From the NCBI GenBank assembly GCA_028823415.1, contig JAPKBL010000012.1, positions 1 to 64,000 of the forward strand: a stretch of DNA of 64,000 bases. Reading direction: 5' to 3'. The notes under the pieces were generated by a model that saw only the letters and a program-made list of their open reading frames with translations, had not been told where the DNA came from and ran no database searches. Position numbers and translations under genes: made by a program. The DNA is from Mariniblastus sp. (GTDB taxonomy: Bacteria; Planctomycetota; Planctomycetia; Pirellulales; Pirellulaceae). Positions 4,169 to 53,387 of this stretch are shown piece by piece; the stretch's first letter is position 1, and each line of letters begins with the position of its first letter.

Positions 4169-5080
4169 ATGTCAACAAAACTGGTTCAAGCAAAATCCCT
4201 TACCAAAAGGTATGGCGATTTTACGGCACTGGACCGCTGTTCACTTGAGATTTGCGAAGGCGAAGTGTTCGGTTTGCTCGGTCCTAACGGGTCTGGCAAA
4301 TCTACTTTCCTCCGCTTGCTGCTTGGGTTTCTAAAGCCCACGGAGGGATCGGCAGAAATTGGCGGGTTGGATTGTCTCCATCAGCGCGTCGAAGTCCACC
4401 GAATGGTGTCCTATCTTCCCGGTGACGCCCGTTTGTTTCGAATGATGCGAGCACGGAAAATGCTCGAGATCTTTTGTGGATTTCGCGAGGATGCGAGTTT
4501 CGAAAAAGCAGTAGAAATATCGGATCGATTGGAACTTGATTTGTCTCGCTGGGTGGGTCTTATGTCGACTGGGATGCGGCAAAAGCTGGCGTTGGCAATC
4601 ACGCTTTGCAGTCAAACGCCACTGGTGATTCTGGATGAACCGACAGCCAACCTTGATCCGACGGTTCGCGGCAGGGTGATGGATTTGGTCAACGAGGCGA
4701 AAGTTTCCGGGCGAACAGTAATTTTCTCGTCGCATGTTCTTCCCGAAATCGAGGATACATGTGATCGCGTCGGAATCTTGCGAGATGGTCAATTGGTCCA
4801 CGTTGAGTCGCTGAGTCGATTGAAAAAACAGCATCGAATACTCGCGGATCTCAGGGGTAATCTGCCGGAACTCCCCGAGGGATTGCGAGACTCAATAGTC
4901 ATCAAACAAAACGGAAACTCGGTTCAAATAGAAACCCCGGGCGAACTGTCTCCGGTTTTAAGGTGGCTTTCGGACGCGCCAATTTCTGATGTTTATATCC
5001 AGCCAGTTGGGCTACGGGCCGTTTATGATCGTTTTCACCATAAGTCGACGATTGTGTCTCAGACGGAGGCGTCCGCATGA
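4169..5080 (+). CDS. ABC transporter ATP-binding protein
   Basis: The nucleotide-binding subunit of an ABC-2 type exporter. Walker [10 protein letters not shown] is at residues 38-46, the signature is the NatA-type variant STGMRQK near residue 133, Walker B is LVILDEPTANLDP and the H-loop is SSHVLPEIE. Length (303 aa from ATG 4169) includes a C-terminal extension typical of the DrrA/CcmA subgroup. A GTG two codons upstream (4163) is also possible. Its stop overlaps the permease start (ATGA at 5077-5080), so the two are translationally coupled and very likely form one transporter. Substrate unknown. Confidence 0.93.
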   Translation: MSTKLVQAKSLTKRYGDFTALDRCSLEICEGEVFGLLGPNGSGKSTFLRLLLGFLKPTEGSAEIGGLDCLHQRVEVHRMVSYLPGDARLFRMMRARKMLEIFCGFREDASFEKAVEISDRLELDLSRWVGLMSTGMRQKLALAITLCSQTPLVILDEPTANLDPTVRGRVMDLVNEAKVSGRTVIFSSHVLPEIEDTCDRVGILRDGQLVHVESLSRLKKQHRILADLRGNLPELPEGLRDSIVIKQNGNSVQIETPGELSPVLRWLSDAPISDVYIQPVGLRAVYDRFHHKSTIVSQTEASA

Positions 5081-44843: not shown

Positions 44844-45371
44844 ATGAACAATCCTTTGAACGCCGAATTCGCCGGGGAATTTTCCCGTTTGTCTGTTGAT
44901 TTGCTCAACCAATCCGTAGTCAAAATTAATCACTGCCTTGGCCAGTTAACCGAAAATCAGGTTTGGTGGCGTCCCCAGCCATCGATGAATAGTATCGGTA
45001 ACTTGTTGATTCATTTGGCTGGAAACTTGAGGCAATGGGGCGTTGTTCCGTTTACCCTTGCCGATGACAGTCGGGATCGGGAATCTGAATTCAGCCCAGA
45101 GTCGCGGCGCGAGGTCGTTGAACTGATTCAGGAATTGGAATCGCTGGTGGTTGCTGCGAAAGACCAGTGGCAATATCTATCCGAAAGTCAATTGAGTAAG
45201 ACAATCAATATACAGGGCTTTGATGTTTCACGAATGCAGACCATTATTCACGCATCAAGCCATTTTGTTGGACATACTCACCAGATCATTCAACTAACTC
45301 GGTTGCAGCTTGCCAGCGACTACAAATTTCACTGGACGCCCAATGACTCCAGAGGCGAACTGCCAATCTAG
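44844..45371 (+). CDS. DinB family / DUF1572-like protein
   Basis: A 175-aa helical protein. The pattern SMNSIGNLLIHLAGNLRQWG (first metal-ligand His), a middle region with VAAKDQWQYLSESQLSKTINIQG and the C-terminal ASSHFVGHTHQIIQLTRLQL (second and third ligands) place it in the DinB superfamily, DUF1572-like. Metal-dependent thiol or small-molecule chemistry is possible, but no reaction is known for the subgroup. It is the third DinB-type gene in the window. The ATG at 44844 is divergent from the DUF1080 gene. Confidence 0.83.
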   Translation: MNNPLNAEFAGEFSRLSVDLLNQSVVKINHCLGQLTENQVWWRPQPSMNSIGNLLIHLAGNLRQWGVVPFTLADDSRDRESEFSPESRREVVELIQELESLVVAAKDQWQYLSESQLSKTINIQGFDVSRMQTIIHASSHFVGHTHQIIQLTRLQLASDYKFHWTPNDSRGELPI

Positions 45372-45764: not shown

Positions 45765-48700
45765 ATGAAGCTTACTGATCTTTTCATTGAGGGCACTCGT
45801 CAGCAGCACGACCTTCAGCTCGGACCATTCACCGATGGTCTCGCGGTTATTTGTGGTGAATCTGGGCCAGGCAGAACTCGCATTCTAGAATTTTTTAGAG
45901 ACGCATGTCTTGGGCTCAAGGCCGATTTTGATCCGTATGGAACGCGTAATCAAGCGGGTTGTCTGGGGCTTCGATTTGCTTCGGTACCATGTGAGTTAAA
46001 TCGTGATCAGGATTCTCGAACGACGATTAAGCGTCGGTTTCAAAGTGGCGATACCGTAAAGAAATGGGATCCTCAATCGTTAACAGGCTATCTTGCGCCA
46101 GTGGGCTCAGATCTGTTTGACTCTGTGTTCTGTGTGAATTTTCTCGAAACTGCGGCGAATGGAAGCAGGCTTGCCGGAGCACTGCATCGGCAATTAGAAG
46201 TGCCAGTTGGCAAGACTTCGATTGCGCAGCGGGAGGCGGTGGTAAAAAGGGAGCGGGATTCACAAATGCGTTTGGAGCAAATGGCCGTACTCCGGGACAG
46301 GATCGATGCGCTCGATTTGGAACGGCGCGATATTTTAGACGAATCTCATCGAGGGCAAGAAGGACAATCGACTGAGTTAAGTATGGTCGAGCTGGAAATA
46401 AACAATGTTGTTGCGGCAATCAATGAAATTGGGCAACGAAAAGCAGGTCTGGTAAGTGAATGTAATGACTATGAGTCATCTCGAAATTGGGCCTTGACCT
46501 CTCCGCTGGAGACTCAGTCGGAATTGAATGCCGGGGGTCACGAGTTGTCATTGCTGTACAGGCGTCTTGACCATGTTGAAGGGCAAGTCCATCGCTGGAG
46601 AAAATTTCAGCTGAGCGTTCACGAGCAGCGAGTCCAGATTCGCGATGAAATGGCGGTCTGGAATGGACTCACGCTTGATTCAGAGGAGCATCCCTACCAT
46701 CATTCCAGGGAGATTTTGGTTTCACTAGAAAGCAAGGTAGATGAAGTTGATCGAAACGCAAATCATTGGGGAGACGCTGCTGCTGCGAGAGTTGATACGG
46801 CCAGTATGGCTCGAACCGTCAACGCAATTTGCCACAATATGCGAGAGGATTTGTATGGTTTGTGTGACGAGTTAGCCCATCAGTATAAACATCTGAGGCA
46901 TAAATCTGCGGCGGCCGAATTGAAGCAGTTGCGTGCACTCTACAATGAAATAGGATCCAATTTGCAAAAATTGGCTCTCGAGCGCAAATCGATTGCGGAA
47001 CAAGTACGGGAGTCCGATGCTTTTGGTGCTAACTTAATTGCCTTAAGTGAAACCCGTTTCATGGCATCTGCGAGAACGCTGGGTTATCAGGAGGCTCGTG
47101 ATCGGTATTTTGCGGAGACGACTGCACAAGCGAGCGAGGCAGGGGAGACCTCGACTGATTTTCAGAATCGTTTAAATGCAATTGATCAGCGTCGCTCTGA
47201 TTTACTCGCAAGTGCTCGTTCATGGGAAACTGAGTTAGATCTTTTACGTCATAGGCATTCATTTTTACTTGAGCAGCGGACTGCGTTGACTCGCTCAAGT
47301 AAGCCAGTGGATTGGCGAGAACAGATTAAAGACATCGACCAAAAGTTGATTTCGTTAAGATATCAATGCGAAGCATTAAAAAGTCAAAGTGAACTAGAGT
47401 TGCCACCGTCTAATCCAATTATCGCAGGAGCGAGTCTTGCACTGACGACGTTGACCGGCGGGGAATTCGACGCGGTTTGGTTGCGGGATTCACAACTTTC
47501 TGATCCATCCAGCGAGGTTTCAGCTTCCGCAGTCGAACTGATGGTGAAAAATCGGTTGGGCATTGAAAGTGAATTCTCGGCGTTAGATTCAGAACTTCAA
47601 AACCGAGTGTATTTATCTCTTATTTTGGCCGTAAAGAATCACTTGCGGCAGAATGGAATTGAAATTCCGACGTTCATCGACAACGCTTTTGCTCATCTTT
47701 CCGATAATGGCGTTAACCAATTGCTTCAAGAGGTAGAGGGATTAACAGGGGCGGGCGATCAATTGATATTATTGGGTCGCCCTCTCAACAACTCCGCGTT
47801 GCTGCAGGCTGTGAGAGTTTTCGAACTGCCACCGGTCAAGCCGGCGGCCGAGTTTTATAATGCGGGGATCGTGCAGGATGTTGTTGAAGAATCGAGTGTT
47901 GAATTCGCTACCGAACCCGGTTGGCGGCCTGAAGATTTTGTAGCGACGGAAGTTTATGCGACGGCCTTTCTTCATCGGCCCTACCCGCTCTCCAAGTATC
48001 CTCGATCGCAAGCACAGTGGGCAATTGAGGAAGATGATTCAATTGTCAGTTTGCCGTTTCCCGTTTCAGGGCAAGTGCAAATGCCGGTCGGGGAAATCGA
48101 AGTTCCCTTTCGCGATGAGAATCAGCCTGCTGTTTCGTCAGTTTCGGTGAGTATGATCGGCGACCGATTGGGATACGTTTCAACTATTGATGAAACAACA
48201 AAGTTGGATCGAATGGGGTTTTTTGATGCAAAACAATTGAGATTGTTTCACGATCAGGGGATCGAGAGCGTTGGAGATTTATTGGTGGTCGACGAGGGAG
48301 TGGTTGGGGAACTCAATCTCCAGACGGAACAACTTGACCGTTGGCAAGCACAGTTGTGGCTGTTGATGCATGTTCCGGGGCTTAGGACGCCTGATGCGAG
48401 AGTCCTAGTCGCCTGCGGAATTACCGACCTCGAGCACTTAGATACATCGTTCCCACAACAGATATTGGATCGAATCGAGCGATTTTTCTCGACCAGTGAA
48501 GGTCGTCATTTTGGGGTAAAGCGGGAGTCGATTACGCTTGATCGAATCAACGGTTGGTATCAGTCTTTGGACCGAGCTCGGGATAATTGGGATCCGGTAG
48601 AAAACGAAGGTAAGGAGAATGCCGCACCGACGGAGCTAAAACCACCGGTAAAAGAATCAGTCAAAGGGGGTCGCAAGCCCTATCAACGGACAGCTCGTAG

Positions 48701-49376
48701 CTATCAGGCTCGTAATTTCGCACCAGATGGAAATGTGATTAAATCCAATCGGGTGTCAAAGACAACGCGACTCTCGAAAAATGGCAAAGCGCCAATCCTG
48801 GCCCGACCGCCTCGAATGCACGCCAACGCCGCAGTTGCCCAAGTCGCTCCCAGTGTCGCTCCGATGTCGATTCCGGAAAACGAAAAAAGAAAAAGTGTCA
48901 AGCAGCAAGTGAAGAAGGGAAATGTCAAATTGGATACACTCAAGTTTTATCTTGATTTGAGCGATCACGTTGAAGCGGCGCCGTCGATTGGCCCGAAGAC
49001 GGCGGAGAGATTTGAAAAAATTGGAATCAGTACGGTAACTGATTTTTTGAAGCACACCGCAGAATCAATGGAGACCAAGCTGAACTATAAGCGAATTTCT
49101 GCGAAGATAATTCGGGTTTGGCAACATCAAGCGAGGCTGGTTTGCCGCATTCCGAATTTGAGGGGCCATGATTCGCAGTTGCTCGTTGCCTGCGGTGTTA
49201 CTGAACCGGAAACGCTGGCCACAATGCAGCCACAAACACTTTTCGAAATCATCTCGCCGTTTTCTGAAACCAAAGAGGGGCAGAAAATCATTCGTAATGG
49301 TAAAAAGCCGGATCTGGAAGAGGTTACCAATTGGATCAGTTGGGCTTCCAACTTTCGTTCGCTTCAGGCCGCTTAA
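45765..49376 (+). CDS. SMC/Rad50/YhaN-like coiled-coil pseudo-ATPase with two DUF4332-like domains
   Basis: A 1203-aa protein. Residues 1-60 match the YhaN/Rad50-like ATPase N-lobe, but the P-loop GESGPGRT (residues 31-38) has Arg in place of the catalytic Lys. Long coiled coils follow (about 150-545). The C-lobe (about 550-665) shows LDSELQNRVYLSLILAV where related proteins have an LSxGT-type signature, and FIDNAFAHLS at residues 638-647 where the Walker B acidic pair would be; Asp639 is followed by Asn640 instead of an acidic residue. A middle linker leads to a DUF4332-like domain (about 808-938), a basic Lys/Arg/Ala linker (about 939-1060) and a second DUF4332-like domain (about 1062-1203: APSIGPKTAERFEKIGIST, VACGVTEPETL). 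DUF4332 resembles helix-hairpin-helix DNA-binding repeats. Chromosome-associated role inferred; ATP use doubtful. Confidence 0.78.
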   Translation: MKLTDLFIEGTRQQHDLQLGPFTDGLAVICGESGPGRTRILEFFRDACLGLKADFDPYGTRNQAGCLGLRFASVPCELNRDQDSRTTIKRRFQSGDTVKKWDPQSLTGYLAPVGSDLFDSVFCVNFLETAANGSRLAGALHRQLEVPVGKTSIAQREAVVKRERDSQMRLEQMAVLRDRIDALDLERRDILDESHRGQEGQSTELSMVELEINNVVAAINEIGQRKAGLVSECNDYESSRNWALTSPLETQSELNAGGHELSLLYRRLDHVEGQVHRWRKFQLSVHEQRVQIRDEMAVWNGLTLDSEEHPYHHSREILVSLESKVDEVDRNANHWGDAAAARVDTASMARTVNAICHNMREDLYGLCDELAHQYKHLRHKSAAAELKQLRALYNEIGSNLQKLALERKSIAEQVRESDAFGANLIALSETRFMASARTLGYQEARDRYFAETTAQASEAGETSTDFQNRLNAIDQRRSDLLASARSWETELDLLRHRHSFLLEQRTALTRSSKPVDWREQIKDIDQKLISLRYQCEALKSQSELELPPSNPIIAGASLALTTLTGGEFDAVWLRDSQLSDPSSEVSASAVELMVKNRLGIESEFSALDSELQNRVYLSLILAVKNHLRQNGIEIPTFIDNAFAHLSDNGVNQLLQEVEGLTGAGDQLILLGRPLNNSALLQAVRVFELPPVKPAAEFYNAGIVQDVVEESSVEFATEPGWRPEDFVATEVYATAFLHRPYPLSKYPRSQAQWAIEEDDSIVSLPFPVSGQVQMPVGEIEVPFRDENQPAVSSVSVSMIGDRLGYVSTIDETTKLDRMGFFDAKQLRLFHDQGIESVGDLLVVDEGVVGELNLQTEQLDRWQAQLWLLMHVPGLRTPDARVLVACGITDLEHLDTSFPQQILDRIERFFSTSEGRHFGVKRESITLDRINGWYQSLDRARDNWDPVENEGKENAAPTELKPPVKESVKGGRKPYQRTARSYQARNFAPDGNVIKSNRVSKTTRLSKNGKAPILARPPRMHANAAVAQVAPSVAPMSIPENEKRKSVKQQVKKGNVKLDTLKFYLDLSDHVEAAPSIGPKTAERFEKIGISTVTDFLKHTAESMETKLNYKRISAKIIRVWQHQARLVCRIPNLRGHDSQLLVACGVTEPETLATMQPQTLFEIISPFSETKEGQKIIRNGKKPDLEEVTNWISWASNFRSLQAA

Positions 49377-49407: not shown

Positions 49408-51003
49408 TTAAACGAGGGGGCCGGAGTTGAGCACATCTTCGGAGGCTTTATCGGCGTAGGAGGTGAAATTATTGCGGAATTTCGTCGCCAACAATTTCGC
49501 CGTTTTTTCGAAGGCGGCCGAATCGGCCCATGTTCCACGCGGCTGCAGGATTTTCCCCGGAACGCCCACGCATGATTTTGGGACACGCAATCCAAAAATC
49601 GGGTCGGTGGTGTAATCGGCAATCGCTAAGGAGCCATTGTGAATGGCATCAATAATGGCGCGAGTGTATTGGAGGCTGATGCGCGAACCGACACCGAATG
49701 AACCGCCACTCCAACCGGTGTTGACCAACCACGCACTGGTTCCATGGAGTTGCATTTGTTCAGCCAACAGTGTGGCGTATTTGGTTGGATGCCAAACTAA
49801 AAACGCGGCGCCAAAACAGGCCGAGAATGTCGCCTCAGGATCCTTTACCCCTACTTCGGTTCCTGCGACCTTGGCCGTGTATCCGCTGATAAAGTGATAC
49901 ATTGCCTGTGCCGAGGTAAGTTTGCTAACGGGTGGCAGAACGCCAAAGGCGTCGCAAGTCAAAAATACGATGTTCTTGGGTGAATCCGTGATACACGGGA
50001 TTTTGGCGTTGTCGATGTATTCGATCGGATAGGAGCAACGTGTATTTTGGGTGAGCGAAACATCTTTGTAGTCGACTGCGTGGGTGAGTCGATCCTGGAC
50101 TGTGTTTTCAAGAACCGATCCGTAGCGGATAGCGTCGAAAATTTGTGGTTCTTTATCTTTTGAGAGGTTGATGCATTTCGCATAGCATCCCCCCTCGATG
50201 TTAAAGACTCCATCGTCGTTCCAGCAATGCTCATCGTCGCCAATGAGTGGTCGTGCTGGATCAGCGGAAAGCGTTGTTTTTCCAGTTCCAGAAAGCCCGA
50301 AAAATAGCGACACGTCATGTTTCTCGCCGACGTTGCATGAGCAATGCATTGAGAGGATGTCCCGTTTGGGCATGAGATAGTTCATGATCGTGAAGACGCC
50401 TTTTTTCATTTCGCCGGCGTATTCGGTTCCCAGAATGACCATTTCACCACGATCGAAGTTGATCGAAACGGAGGTCGTTGAATCGACACCTTCTACCGAA
50501 GTGTCGGCCGACACCTGGCCGGCGTTGTAAATAACGTAATCAGGTTCGCCAAAATCAGCCAATTCCTCAGCGGTCGGTCGGATCAGCATGTTGTGCATAA
50601 ACAGTGCATGGTAGGCACGCGAGCAGATAACACGTACTTTTAAGCGGCAGGTCGGGTCCCATCCTGCGAAGGCGTCGAGGACATAGAACTGAGGGCACTC
50701 GTCCAGAAATTCGACCGCTTGTTGTTTGACTTTGGCGAAAGAATCCTCCGGCATCGGAATGTTTATTTCACCCCACCAGACATCGTCGTTAATGCTGGCT
50801 TGCTGCACGATTCGTTTGTCTTTGGGGCTGCGGCCCGTTTTCTCACCTGAGTTTGACGACAATCCCCCAGTGCTGGTGATGGTTCCTTGGTCGAATTTGA
50901 TGGCTTCTTCGTAAAGACGCGCGGGTGCCGTATTTCGTAAAATTTCCTCTGGAAATTTAGGTAGACTAAGCGAGGCAATTCTTGAGTGGGTAGGAGTGGC
51001 CAT
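49408..51003 (-). CDS. pckA: Phosphoenolpyruvate carboxykinase (ATP)
   Basis: Converts oxaloacetate and ATP to phosphoenolpyruvate, ADP and CO2, the first committed step of gluconeogenesis. The 531-aa protein has the ATP P-loop [16 protein letters not shown], the metal/substrate region [33 protein letters not shown] near the N-terminus and [24 protein letters not shown] toward the C-terminus. All are typical of the ATP-type enzyme. The ATG at 51001-51003 is chosen because the frame upstream (to 51054) does not match. The gene converges on the 1203-aa gene and is divergent from prpB. Confidence 0.96.
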
Positions 51004-51363
51004 GTGATCGTTCCTGCGTGGACCGGAAACGGGAGAATCTGTAAGAGAAAGCAATGTTGTCGCAGCAATAAAGCAAGCAGAATGTTTTCTCGGAAGCTCC
51101 CTAATTGAGTCGACTTCAGTTAATGTTTCAGCGTAAGTGTTTCAGGTTAAGTGTTTCAGGTTAACTACCTAATTGAATCTGTCAAAGCCAACTCGTGGAC
51201 AGGACCCCCATATTTTGCTGAAGGCAAAGCAATCTTCGAGGTTCTGTGGCGAACTTCCATATATTGAATGATTTTTCCCGCAGGCCGACGTTTCCCTGTA
51301 GGATTACCTTAGCTAACCAAGACGCTCGGCAGTTTCGAATTTCATAGAAGGAAGTAGAACGGT
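51004..51363. other. 360-bp divergent intergenic region (pckA / prpB)
   Basis: It should hold the promoters of pckA and the prpBC pair. It contains the 14-bp tandem repeat at 51121-51162. A purine-rich GAAGGAAG site lies shortly ahead of the prpB ATG. I see no RNA gene. Confidence 0.55.
51121..51162. repeat. Tandem 14-bp repeat, three units
   Basis: Two perfect copies of AAGTGTTTCAGGTT (51135-51148, 51149-51162) are preceded by one degenerate copy (51121-51134). It lies between pckA and prpB, in the promoter-bearing spacer. Confidence 0.85.
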
Positions 51364-52248
51364 ATGTCCTCAACACCAGGCGCGCGGTTTCGAAAGGCGA
51401 TGGCCGAAGAAAAACCGCTGCAAATCCCGGGTACGATTAACGCCTACACGGCGTTGCTTGCTCAGCGGGAAGGTTATCGTGCGATTTATCTTTCGGGAGC
51501 CGGTGTGGCGAATGCTTCCTATGGGATGCCGGACTTGGGAATGACTTCCATGTCGGATGTTTTGGTGGATATCGAGCGAATCACATCTGCTTGCGCGGTT
51601 CCGCTATTGGTTGATGCGGACACAGGCTGGGGGCATTCTCTGTGTATTTCCAGAACCATCCAGGCGTTCATCAAAGCGGGGGCTGCGGCAGTCCACCTTG
51701 AAGATCAACAGGCGGCCAAACGTTGTGGTCATCGCCCCAATAAAGCGATGGTGAGCACGGGTGAAATGGTGGACCGTTTGCATGCGGCTGTCGACGCGCG
51801 AACGGATGAGTCGTTCGTGATCATGGCACGTACCGATGCACTGGCCGAGGAGGGGTTGGAGCGATCGATTGAGCGTTGTCAGAAATATATTGAAGCTGGC
51901 GCCGACGTAATATTTGCCGAAGCAATTACCGACGCTGAGCATTACCGGTTTTTCACCCAATCCCTCAGTGTTCCTGTTTTAGCGAACATGACTGAATTTG
52001 GAATGAGCCCGTTGATGACGGTCGAGCATCTTTCGGAGGTGGGGGTTGAGCTGGTACTCTACCCCCTGACTGCGTTTCGAGTGATGAGTCAAGCGGCCGG
52101 CGCGGCTTATCAAACTATCCGAAAAACGGGTACCCAAAGTAGCATTTTAGACCAAATGCAGACTAGGAAAGAACTTTACGAAGTGCTTGATTATCACGCT
52201 TACGAGCAAAAAATAGACGACTTACTAAAGAAGGCTGATTCAGAATGA
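51364..52248 (+). CDS. prpB: 2-methylisocitrate lyase
   Basis: Cleaves 2-methylisocitrate to pyruvate and succinate, the last step of the methylcitrate cycle for propionate. The 294-aa protein of the isocitrate lyase/PEP mutase superfamily shows [23 protein letters not shown] at the start, the metal-binding DADTGWG, the catalytic loop [13 protein letters not shown] and [28 protein letters not shown] is the diagnostic PrpB form. Its stop overlaps the prpC start by 4 bp, so the two are translationally coupled. A Shine-Dalgarno-like GGAAG precedes the ATG. Confidence 0.95.
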
Positions 52249-53387
52249 CAGTTAAGAAAAAAACAGGAGGACTCGCTGGCGTTGTCGCTGGCGAGACTGC
52301 CATTGCGACGGTGGGCAAAGAAGGTTCGGGATTAAATTATCGCGGCTACTCAATTCATGATTTGGCAGCGGAAGCGACATTTGAGGAAGTTGCATTTCTG
52401 CTTCTTTTCGGCCACCTGCCACGAAGAAAAGAGCTGGACAGCTTCACTGCGAGATTGGTAAACGGCCGCCAGCTACCGGACGCACTGTGCCAGACGTTGC
52501 GTGCGATTCCAGCGGATGCCCATCCCATGGATGTCCTTCGCACGGGCTGTTCTATGCTGGGGGTTCTTGAACCTGAGATTTCCTTTGATCAGCAAGAACT
52601 TAAAGCAGAGCGACTTTTAGCATGCCTGCCGTCCATGCTCGTTTATTGGTACCGGTTCGCCCAGGATGGAACTGAAATCGATTTCGATTCGACCGAGTCT
52701 TCTATTGCCGGTTATTTTTTGGAGAAAATGCATGACGCTACGCCATCGGATCTCCATCGTCGCGTGATGGACGTCTCGCTCGTTTTGTATGCCGAGCATG
52801 AATTCAATGCGTCGACTTTTACAGCGAGAGTCTGCACCGCAACGCTTTCCGATTTATTTTCTGCGATCACGGGAGCTATTGGAACGTTGCGAGGTCCTCT
52901 TCACGGGGGAGCCAATGAAGCGGCGATGGAGTTGATTGAACGATATCAAACGCCGGACGAAGCAGAGGCTGGCATTATGGAAATGTTGTCAAGCAAGGCG
53001 CTGATTATGGGCTTCGGCCATCGGGTCTACTCAGTTTCAGATCCCCGCAATGAAGTCATTAAAGGCTGGGCGAAACAACTTTCCGAAGCCAACGGAGATA
53101 CGGTGTTGTATCCAGTGTCGGAGCGAATTGAGCAGGTAATGTGGCGGGAGAAAAAGCTGTTTCCCAATCTCGATTTTTATAGTGCGTCGGTTTACCATTT
53201 CCTTGGAATTCCCACCGAGATGTTTACTCCGATTTTCGTACTTTCGAGAGTCTCTGGTTGGGCAGCGCATGTTTTTGAACAACGTTCCAACAATCGCTTG
53301 ATACGTCCAGGAGCTGAGTATATTGGCCCGGATCAGCTCGATTTTGTTGCAATTGATGATCGCGAGTCGGCTGTAGACCCGGTTTAA
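52245..53387 (+). CDS. prpC: 2-methylcitrate synthase / citrate synthase family
   Basis: Condenses propionyl-CoA with oxaloacetate to 2-methylcitrate. The 380-aa protein has the citrate synthase pattern: [13 protein letters not shown] near the start, [18 protein letters not shown] (first catalytic His), [16 protein letters not shown] (second) and [16 protein letters not shown] (Asp). The short N-terminus and the coupling to prpB point to PrpC rather than the house-keeping GltA; citrate activity may also be present. No prpD or acnD gene is in the window, so the dehydration step must be encoded elsewhere. The start codon overlaps prpB (ATGA). Confidence 0.93.

Follow-up and report, generated by a model that had tools for sequence, protein, structure and literature searches.

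The window analyzed here, a stretch of 64,000 nucleotides from Mariniblastus sp. (contig JAPKBL010000012.1), carries on its plus strand an SMC-like gene at positions 45765-49376, the product of which combines a head of the YhaN/Rad50 type, predicted coiled-coil arms, and two DUF4332 domains. The loss of the ATP site of this head is well supported by sequence comparison in a clade that numbers eight species or more and lies within a branch of the aquatic Planctomycetes. The comparisons further indicate that this was a lineage-specific event on the stem of the clade, inside an ATPase family in which such losses were repeated elsewhere. Proteins of the SMC superfamily are a known kind; new is a member that has DUF4332 tails, lost its ATPase, and is still under selection, from a family in which this loss recurs. 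SMC and Rad50 proteins are usually viewed as ATP-driven machines. As the rest of the protein remained under strong selection after loss of the site, and as relatives lost the same site many times, our data suggest that an SMC-shaped protein is able to do a job without ATP.

Domain architecture and relationship of the head

The gene is a single uninterrupted frame of 1203 amino acids with an ATG start. Its features are listed below, all on the plus strand and in coordinates of the window.

45765..49376, +, whole gene: degenerate YhaN/Rad50-like head, arms, and two DUF4332 domains (1203 aa; orthologues, synteny)
45765..46244, +, N-terminal lobe of the ABC-type head, residues 1-160 (AAA_23 match below the cut-off; Rad50 N-lobes reached by the family profile)
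45855..45878, +, degenerate P-loop, residues 31-38, reading GESGPGRT with Arg37 in place of Lys (alignment, conservation scan)
45888..45944, +, helix/loop after the P-loop, residues 42-60, invariant among four divergent clade members (conservation)
46245..47399, +, arms predicted to form coiled coils and conserved at their center, residues 161-545 (low-confidence model, mostly helical; conservation)
47061..47078, +, MASART, residues 433-438, the site of CxCxxH in 19 of 61 aligned proteins; the clade lacks CxCxxH
47400..47834, +, C-terminal lobe of the head, residues 546-690 (family profile to the Rad50 C-lobe, 3qku, whole-sequence E=3.1e-15)
47583..47603, +, degenerate signature LDSELQN, residues 607-613 (alignment)
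47667..47690, +, Walker B region PTFIDNAF, residues 635-642, with Asp639 present and Asn640 instead of an acid (alignment)
47760..47783, +, H-loop region QLILLGRP, residues 666-673, with Pro at column 673 (alignment)
48222..48557, +, DUF4332 domain I (Pfam)
48585..48938, +, basic linker that joins the two DUF4332 domains, residues 941-1058 (net charge averaging +13.8 over the clade)
48981..49349, +, DUF4332 domain II with the helix-hairpin-helix (HhH)-like APSIGPKTAERF, more conserved than any other region (Pfam, conservation)

The two DUF4332-like domains that the first-pass annotation, made from the sequence alone, had read by eye were both found by the Pfam search (PF14229; 97.7 bits against a curated cut-off of 23.2, in two stretches, whole-protein E=7.1e-28). 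At the N-terminus, AAA_23 matched below its family cut-off (E=1.8e-4), and neither SMC_N nor the SMC hinge was among the Pfam matches of the protein at E<=1.

The alignment of the head with YhaN and Rad50, likewise proposed by eye, could be established at the level of the family, but not for the protein or its clade alone. Searches of the PDB with the query alone and with a clade-only profile returned no entry at E<=1. When 14 diverse members of the family were combined into a profile, Rad50 heads in the PDB were reached over both lobes with E-values down to 3.1e-15, and in the printed profile alignments the P-loop, signature, and Walker B of the family fell on the Rad50 motifs. AAA_27, the YhaN domain, scored over its cut-off in seven of eight relatives scanned (the exception being L038; L, here and below, denotes a homologous or related locus), and also in L081. 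These profile matches place the head with the ABC heads of YhaN and Rad50 and show it to be bipartite, with its lobes split by the arms.

The ATP site is degenerate throughout the clade

The clade comprises the window's protein and seven near relatives, which are 71-77% identical to it, two of them partial, and which come from metagenome-assembled genomes (MAGs) assigned to Pirellulaceae, Planctomycetaceae, Mariniblastus, or Planctomycetota. None of the seven clade members whose N-terminus was read fits the Walker A pattern GxxxxGK[ST]: Arg37 takes the place of the lysine in all of them, i.e., in six aligned proteins (GESGPGRT, GVSGAGRT, GDSGAERT, GDSGAGRT, SDYRVGRA, and SDSRAARA) and G101 (SDSEAGRA). 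The signature does not fit LSxGx, reading LDSELQN or variants thereof. At Walker B, only position 640 departs from the expected Asp followed by a catalytic Glu or Asp: it is Asn or His in all eight species, and Asp639 is present in all eight. At column 673, the 8/8 species have Pro, Ser, or Thr and never His. The first-pass claims of a Lys-to-Arg exchange in the P-loop GESGPGRT and of a signature LDSELQNR without LSxGT were thus borne out. Of the two residues for which a survey of homologues had been proposed, Arg37 recurs in all seven N-termini read, and position 640 is Asn or His throughout the clade. The claim of a lost Walker B holds for the second acid only.

In the same genus, all 17 complete rows outside the clade have the P-loop lysine, and 16 of them have the two Walker B acids (L087 reads ND). 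A histidine at column 673 was found in 13 of these 17 rows and in 10 of 38 rows of the wider family. It is probably the H-loop histidine, as the intact YhaN-like protein encoded in the same genome as the window has a His at the same place (FTCHDH); in the ungapped profile alignment, the Rad50 histidine lies one column before 673. Four positions (37, 406, 450, and 1137) do not vary among the 17 genus rows but differ from them in each of the six aligned clade rows.

The motifs were not all lost simultaneously, as the signature is already off-consensus in the nearest intact sisters (DPGLQ in L081, DAGLQ in L082) and is variable in the genus, with LSRGQ in L091. The sequences thus indicate that signature drift preceded the loss of the P-loop, so that the earlier notion of a coordinated loss is right in part only. 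Nucleotide binding appears unlikely in the clade as a whole, given the P-loops SDSRAARA, SDYRVGRA, and SDSEAGRA of L036, L037, and G101.

Selection was relaxed at the P-loop and tightened beside it

The ratio of nonsynonymous to synonymous divergence (dN/dS) in two close pairs of clade members was 0.018/0.171 and 0.028/0.168 (about 0.1-0.17, taken without a neighbor-gene control). Among four divergent members, the proportion of nonsynonymous differences (pN) was 0.123 overall, 0.229 in residues 29-41 around the P-loop, and 0.000 in residues 42-60 directly after it; it was 0.045 in the arm center and 0.036 in DUF4332-II, with synonymous proportions (pS) of 0.52-0.74. Across the genus, the second half of residues 42-60 is highly variable.

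The conservation of the P-loop window, ranked among 289 windows of the head, fell at percentile 0.997 in the intact orthologues of the genus and at 0.16 in the clade; ranked over the whole protein, the percentiles were 0.94 and 0.12. In a scan of 1193 ten-residue windows, in which ranks in six close and 17 distant sequences were compared without a formal null model, residues 30-39 showed the largest loss of relative constraint and residues 671-680 the second largest, and the strongest gains were found for residues 720-729 and, in second place, 51-60. These patterns indicate that the ATP site was released while the adjoining head surface gained constraint.

Random decay is ruled out by the low dN/dS, the conserved synteny described below, and a relaxation that centers on the P-loop, in a gene that eight species keep. 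This is in agreement with the first-pass annotation, which had argued against random decay.

The loss is derived and has recurred

In a tree of 61 rows computed after removal of the motif columns, the six clade rows formed one group with a value of 100 in the Shimodaira-Hasegawa-like approximate likelihood ratio test (SH-aLRT). The stem of the clade measured 0.73 changes per column, and the end branches within it were at most 0.1. Seven rows from another family of the order were added to give a set of 68. In this set, the P-loop lysine is missing in 22 proteins, which takes at least 10 changes on the tree; a P-loop test that asked for the lysine, the following Ser or Thr, and the preceding Gly or Ala failed in 26 (at least 13 changes), and 37 proteins deviate at the pair of Walker B acids (at least 14 changes). 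Both trees were quick searches with SH-aLRT support only and several weak branches, and the change counts are minimal and give no direction by themselves. The 40 loci and the seven other-family rows were taken from the better matches and not at random. The fragments L034, L035, L092 (two pieces), and L093 were left out of the trees, as was L059, the N-terminus of which has no recognizable head and would add one more row lacking the P-loop lysine. L092:2954-6443 is a homologue from the same genus in which the gene breaks near 4340 into two frames that overlap.

The direction of change rests on the alignment with Rad50 and on relatives from another family of the class, of which five were read. 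All five have a canonical P-loop, LSRGT or LSSGT as signature, and LDD or LDE at Walker B; His is found at column 673 in two and at column 675 in all five (one of them, L111, was read from a 1200-aa minus-strand frame). As all five are canonical, the ATP site was most likely intact in the ancestor of the family. As, in addition, syntenic orthologues of the same genus are intact, the loss is derived on the clade stem and not the sign of a family that was ATP-free from its origin. The first-pass annotation had proposed an ATP-independent organizer of chromosome or RNA and had named homologues with canonical Walker A and B as the finding that would overturn it. Such homologues exist among the syntenic loci (L081, L082, L086, L089, L091, and L041) and in the other family of the class, and the proposal therefore does not hold for the family as it was stated.

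Motif states in the wider family are mixed. L046, L048, L055, and L063 combine a perfect P-loop (GPNGSGKT or GPNGAGKS) with ND at Walker B. In L054, L065, L066, L069, L070, L071, and L076, which are 1362-1542 aa long, the P-loop lysine is present, Walker B reads ET, EA, or EI, and an insertion follows it.

A proposed model of the protein without an ATP cycle

We lean towards the view that the protein is a nucleotide-independent, homodimeric tether or scaffold. The ATP cycle would no longer be run, and the head would have turned into a structural platform. If a new contact replaced the old one, its best candidate is the segment next to the former P-loop that became invariant. Opening and closing of the head by the ATP cycle, as intact relatives would use it, would be replaced by a fixed state, and the protein would probably be a homodimeric rod at all times, which tethers or scaffolds a target with the arms as spacer. 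Contacts to the target may be made by the basic linker together with DUF4332-II, which is HhH-like and possibly binds DNA, and not by the acidic head. The linker is basic in 6/6 clade, 17/17 genus, and 32/36 family rows, and the C-lobe has a mean net charge of -9.5 in clade rows, -3.7 in genus rows, and +0.1 in family rows. DUF4332-II retains APSIGPKTAERF, which is close to a helix-hairpin-helix hairpin, and HHH_5 scored over its cut-off in five of eight and three of six relatives in two Pfam sets, though not in the window's protein. DNA is a plausible target, and an organizer of DNA or RNA, as first proposed, would be one possible role. More tentatively, and with our doubts being somewhat greater than our confidence, we propose that a passive, ATP-independent tether or scaffold with an SMC body is a stable state that was repeatedly reached in the order around Pirellulaceae, and that the head of the window's clade gained a constrained contact by the dead site.

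Several observations weigh against this model. DUF4332-II has a net charge of 0.0, i.e., no positive excess, and the HHH_5 match of the window's protein is weak (E=0.046), so that DNA binding is a guess. The protein itself keeps the P-loop glycines and Asp639, from which alone weak nucleotide binding would be possible, and the loss at column 673 means little by itself, as this column varies in the wider family. AlphaFold gave low-confidence models both for residues 1-700 (mean predicted local distance difference test score, pLDDT, 42.5) and for the DUF4332 part (46.9), each from a clade-only alignment of eight rows, and the claimed fold is therefore based on sequence profiles. Finally, the genome encodes a YhaN-like protein that could serve as a partner, as discussed below for a heterodimer.

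In principle, the part that matters could be the DUF4332 tail alone, perhaps together with the arm center, and the head could be a slowly eroding relic. DUF4332-II and the arm center are indeed the most conserved parts (pN 0.036 and 0.045), the family repeatedly loses head motifs, no head family was found at E<=0.001 in four of six scanned relatives (L039, L051, L071, and L106), and short proteins exist that have DUF4332-II without an SMC-like head. We nevertheless consider a relic unlikely, as residues 42-60 and the Walker B region are strongly constrained in the clade and the head is in frame in all six full-length members.

A head that binds nucleotide without hydrolysis, with ATP as a structural ligand or sensor, also appears improbable. 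The P-loop shows the largest loss of relative constraint, the Ser and Gly of the signature are gone, and no P-loop consensus remains in L036, L037, and G101. These points stand against the P-loop glycines and Thr38 that the window's protein and L031 retain, and against the presence of Asp639 in 8/8 species.

ABC proteins with one dead site provide a precedent for a heterodimer, in which the window's protein would contribute the degenerate second site and an intact SMC-superfamily ATPase the other. The window's own genome contains candidates for such a partner. On contig 38, a plain YhaN-like open reading frame (ORF; L099:7016-10486) with GYNEAGKTT, LDDVLVNF, and an AAA_27 match of E=6.1e-11 adjoins an ORF with weak Mre11/SbcD matches, and contig 134 encodes an SMC_N protein of 1216 aa that scores over the cut-off. 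However, intact syntenic orthologues occur among the same neighbors, and for the two nearest of these, neither family search nor reading points to an ATPase (the Pfam search covered five of the 16 window neighbors); the relative L063 aligned with the plain YhaN-like ORF in the head lobes only; and other lineages lost head motifs in varying combinations without a fixed pattern. We thus regard a heterodimer as rather improbable.

A pseudogene or a sequencing or assembly artefact is refuted: although all seven named near-relative records are MAGs and L092 lies in two frames, the changes are common to six full-length and two partial open frames from different assemblies with low dN/dS.

Within a single genus, intact and ATPase-dead orthologues occupy one and the same locus, which is a natural experiment on an SMC body without ATP. 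The family thereby offers a way to find the contacts that replace ATP-driven head engagement.

Synteny, neighboring genes, and distribution

Two genes adjoin the SMC-like gene and served as positional markers.

44844..45371, +, conserved upstream neighbor, DUF1572/DinB-like, outside the mechanism (Pfam, synteny)
49408..51054, -, conserved downstream convergent neighbor (synteny)

From its translation, we take the downstream gene to be PEPCK-like (phosphoenolpyruvate carboxykinase); PEP-mutase-like and citrate-synthase-like genes at 51364-53387 form with it a conserved block adjoining the SMC-like gene. Five of 16 window neighbors were searched in Pfam; they belong to metabolic or housekeeping families and none to defense. 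No excess of promoter- or terminator-like sites over shuffled sequence was seen around the gene.

Synteny was analyzed by tblastn of the 16 window neighbors against the stretches fetched around the homologues. Neighbors on both sides are common to five complete clade loci and to L081, L086, L087, L089, and L091 (the latter read on a 5.5-kb contig). One-sided synteny was found to the left in L082 and L043 and to the right in L041, and L038 and L083 share one gene only. Eight of the 17 complete same-genus rows have no window neighbor within the fetched stretch, and L085 has one at a different place. In comparison with L081, the seven nearest neighbors are 56-85% identical (six of them at least 65%) and four farther upstream 45-74%; the SMC-like protein itself is 44-45% identical. 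An operon with a nuclease was considered and rejected, as the widest neighbor cluster covers 11 of 48 loci without a fixed place or strand; clusters at a fixed place cover at most eight of the 48, all from the window's own neighborhood. Some other pairs of loci have common neighbors of their own.

The window's own genome (5.4 Mb, 265 contigs) contains no second copy of the SMC-like protein, the gene being the single match in an assembly that is 92.7% complete, and one further weak DUF4332 place in an 1837-aa frame. A match was found in 27 of 28 genomes of the genus, the sole miss being an 80%-complete genome. Of 100 genomes in the bacterial family, 79 have a match to the query, and many of the matches listed run via DUF4332 only. 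In the order, 113 of 117 genomes match the relative L063; outside f1 and f7, the matches listed for many families cover the C-lobe of the head, which plain YhaN-like proteins would be expected to do. DUF4332 was found at E<=1e-6 in 14 of 98 genomes of the phylum, in frames of 151-506 aa outside the window's class and, besides the window's gene, of 1118-1322 aa inside it; wider still, it was present in five of 14 control genomes at E<=0.001. A search of plasmid records gave no match to the query.

Among the matches listed, the open-licence literature searched gave no account of this SMC-like/DUF4332 family. In the excerpts retrieved from it, DUF4332 occurs as a name expansion only, in what appears to be a figure legend. 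The SMC-like protein supplies an architectural context for this domain.

Comparison with known systems

The protein resembles YhaN of the YhaON type (AAA_27, PF13514) in that the heads of its relatives match AAA_27 and the lobes are parted by long arms. It differs in its two DUF4332 domains and in the degenerate ATP site of the clade, and no YhaO-type nuclease was found beside the SMC-like gene. With Rad50/SbcC, it shares both head lobes, which align via the family profile including the positions of the P-loop, signature, and Walker B. In contrast to Rad50/SbcC, the CxxC of a zinc hook was not found, the query having neither CxxC nor CxC before residue 900, and there is no Mre11/SbcD-type gene among the two adjacent genes, of which one is DUF1572/DinB-like by Pfam and the other PEPCK-like by eye.

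In the arm, CxCxxH is present near query residue 433 in 19 of 61 proteins, with 7/17 in the genus and 0/6 in the clade, and five proteins have an additional CxC about 90 residues before it (e.g., at residues 417 and 507 in L048, 345 and 434 in L073, and 347 and 437 in L074). This may possibly be a zinc-hook-like element unlike the CxxC of Rad50.

Like the archaeal ASRP/coalescin proteins and Arcadin-4, the protein belongs to the SMC superfamily and would have a role beyond that of canonical SMC proteins; an association of Arcadin-4 with the cytoskeleton is reported (PMC9389158).

With respect to defense systems, the intact relative L063 (L063:8349-11636), for which 67 PADLOC families were listed, matches Lamassu LmuB with 53.8 bits (E=4.9e-15, residues 21-585), whereas the query reaches just 17.3 bits (E=3.3e-4, residues 22-45). 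The query further matches Wadjet JetC3 over the arms (E=0.0045) and, weakly, PtuA over its N-terminus. We rejected a defense system or mobile gene for the window's protein, as its PADLOC matches are weak, the five searched neighbors are non-defense genes, and there is no plasmid match. Some relatives may have a defense role, given the match of L063 to LmuB.

The C-terminal DUF4332-II is held in common with Zn_dep_PLPC-DUF4332 proteins, which differ in having another N-terminal domain, no SMC-like head, and a length of 544-653 aa. Such fusions of a zinc dependent phospholipase C-like domain (PF00882) with a C-terminal DUF4332 are found in L100:3408-5240, L101:2680-4551, L102:2291-4249, and L110:3152-4783, assigned by Pfam for L100 and L110 and by similar sequence for L101 and L102. 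Those of L100 and L101 adjoin ORFs that by eye read like FlhB, FliR, and FlhA. DUF4332-II is a portable tail, carried by Zn_dep_PLPC proteins as well as by the SMC-like protein.

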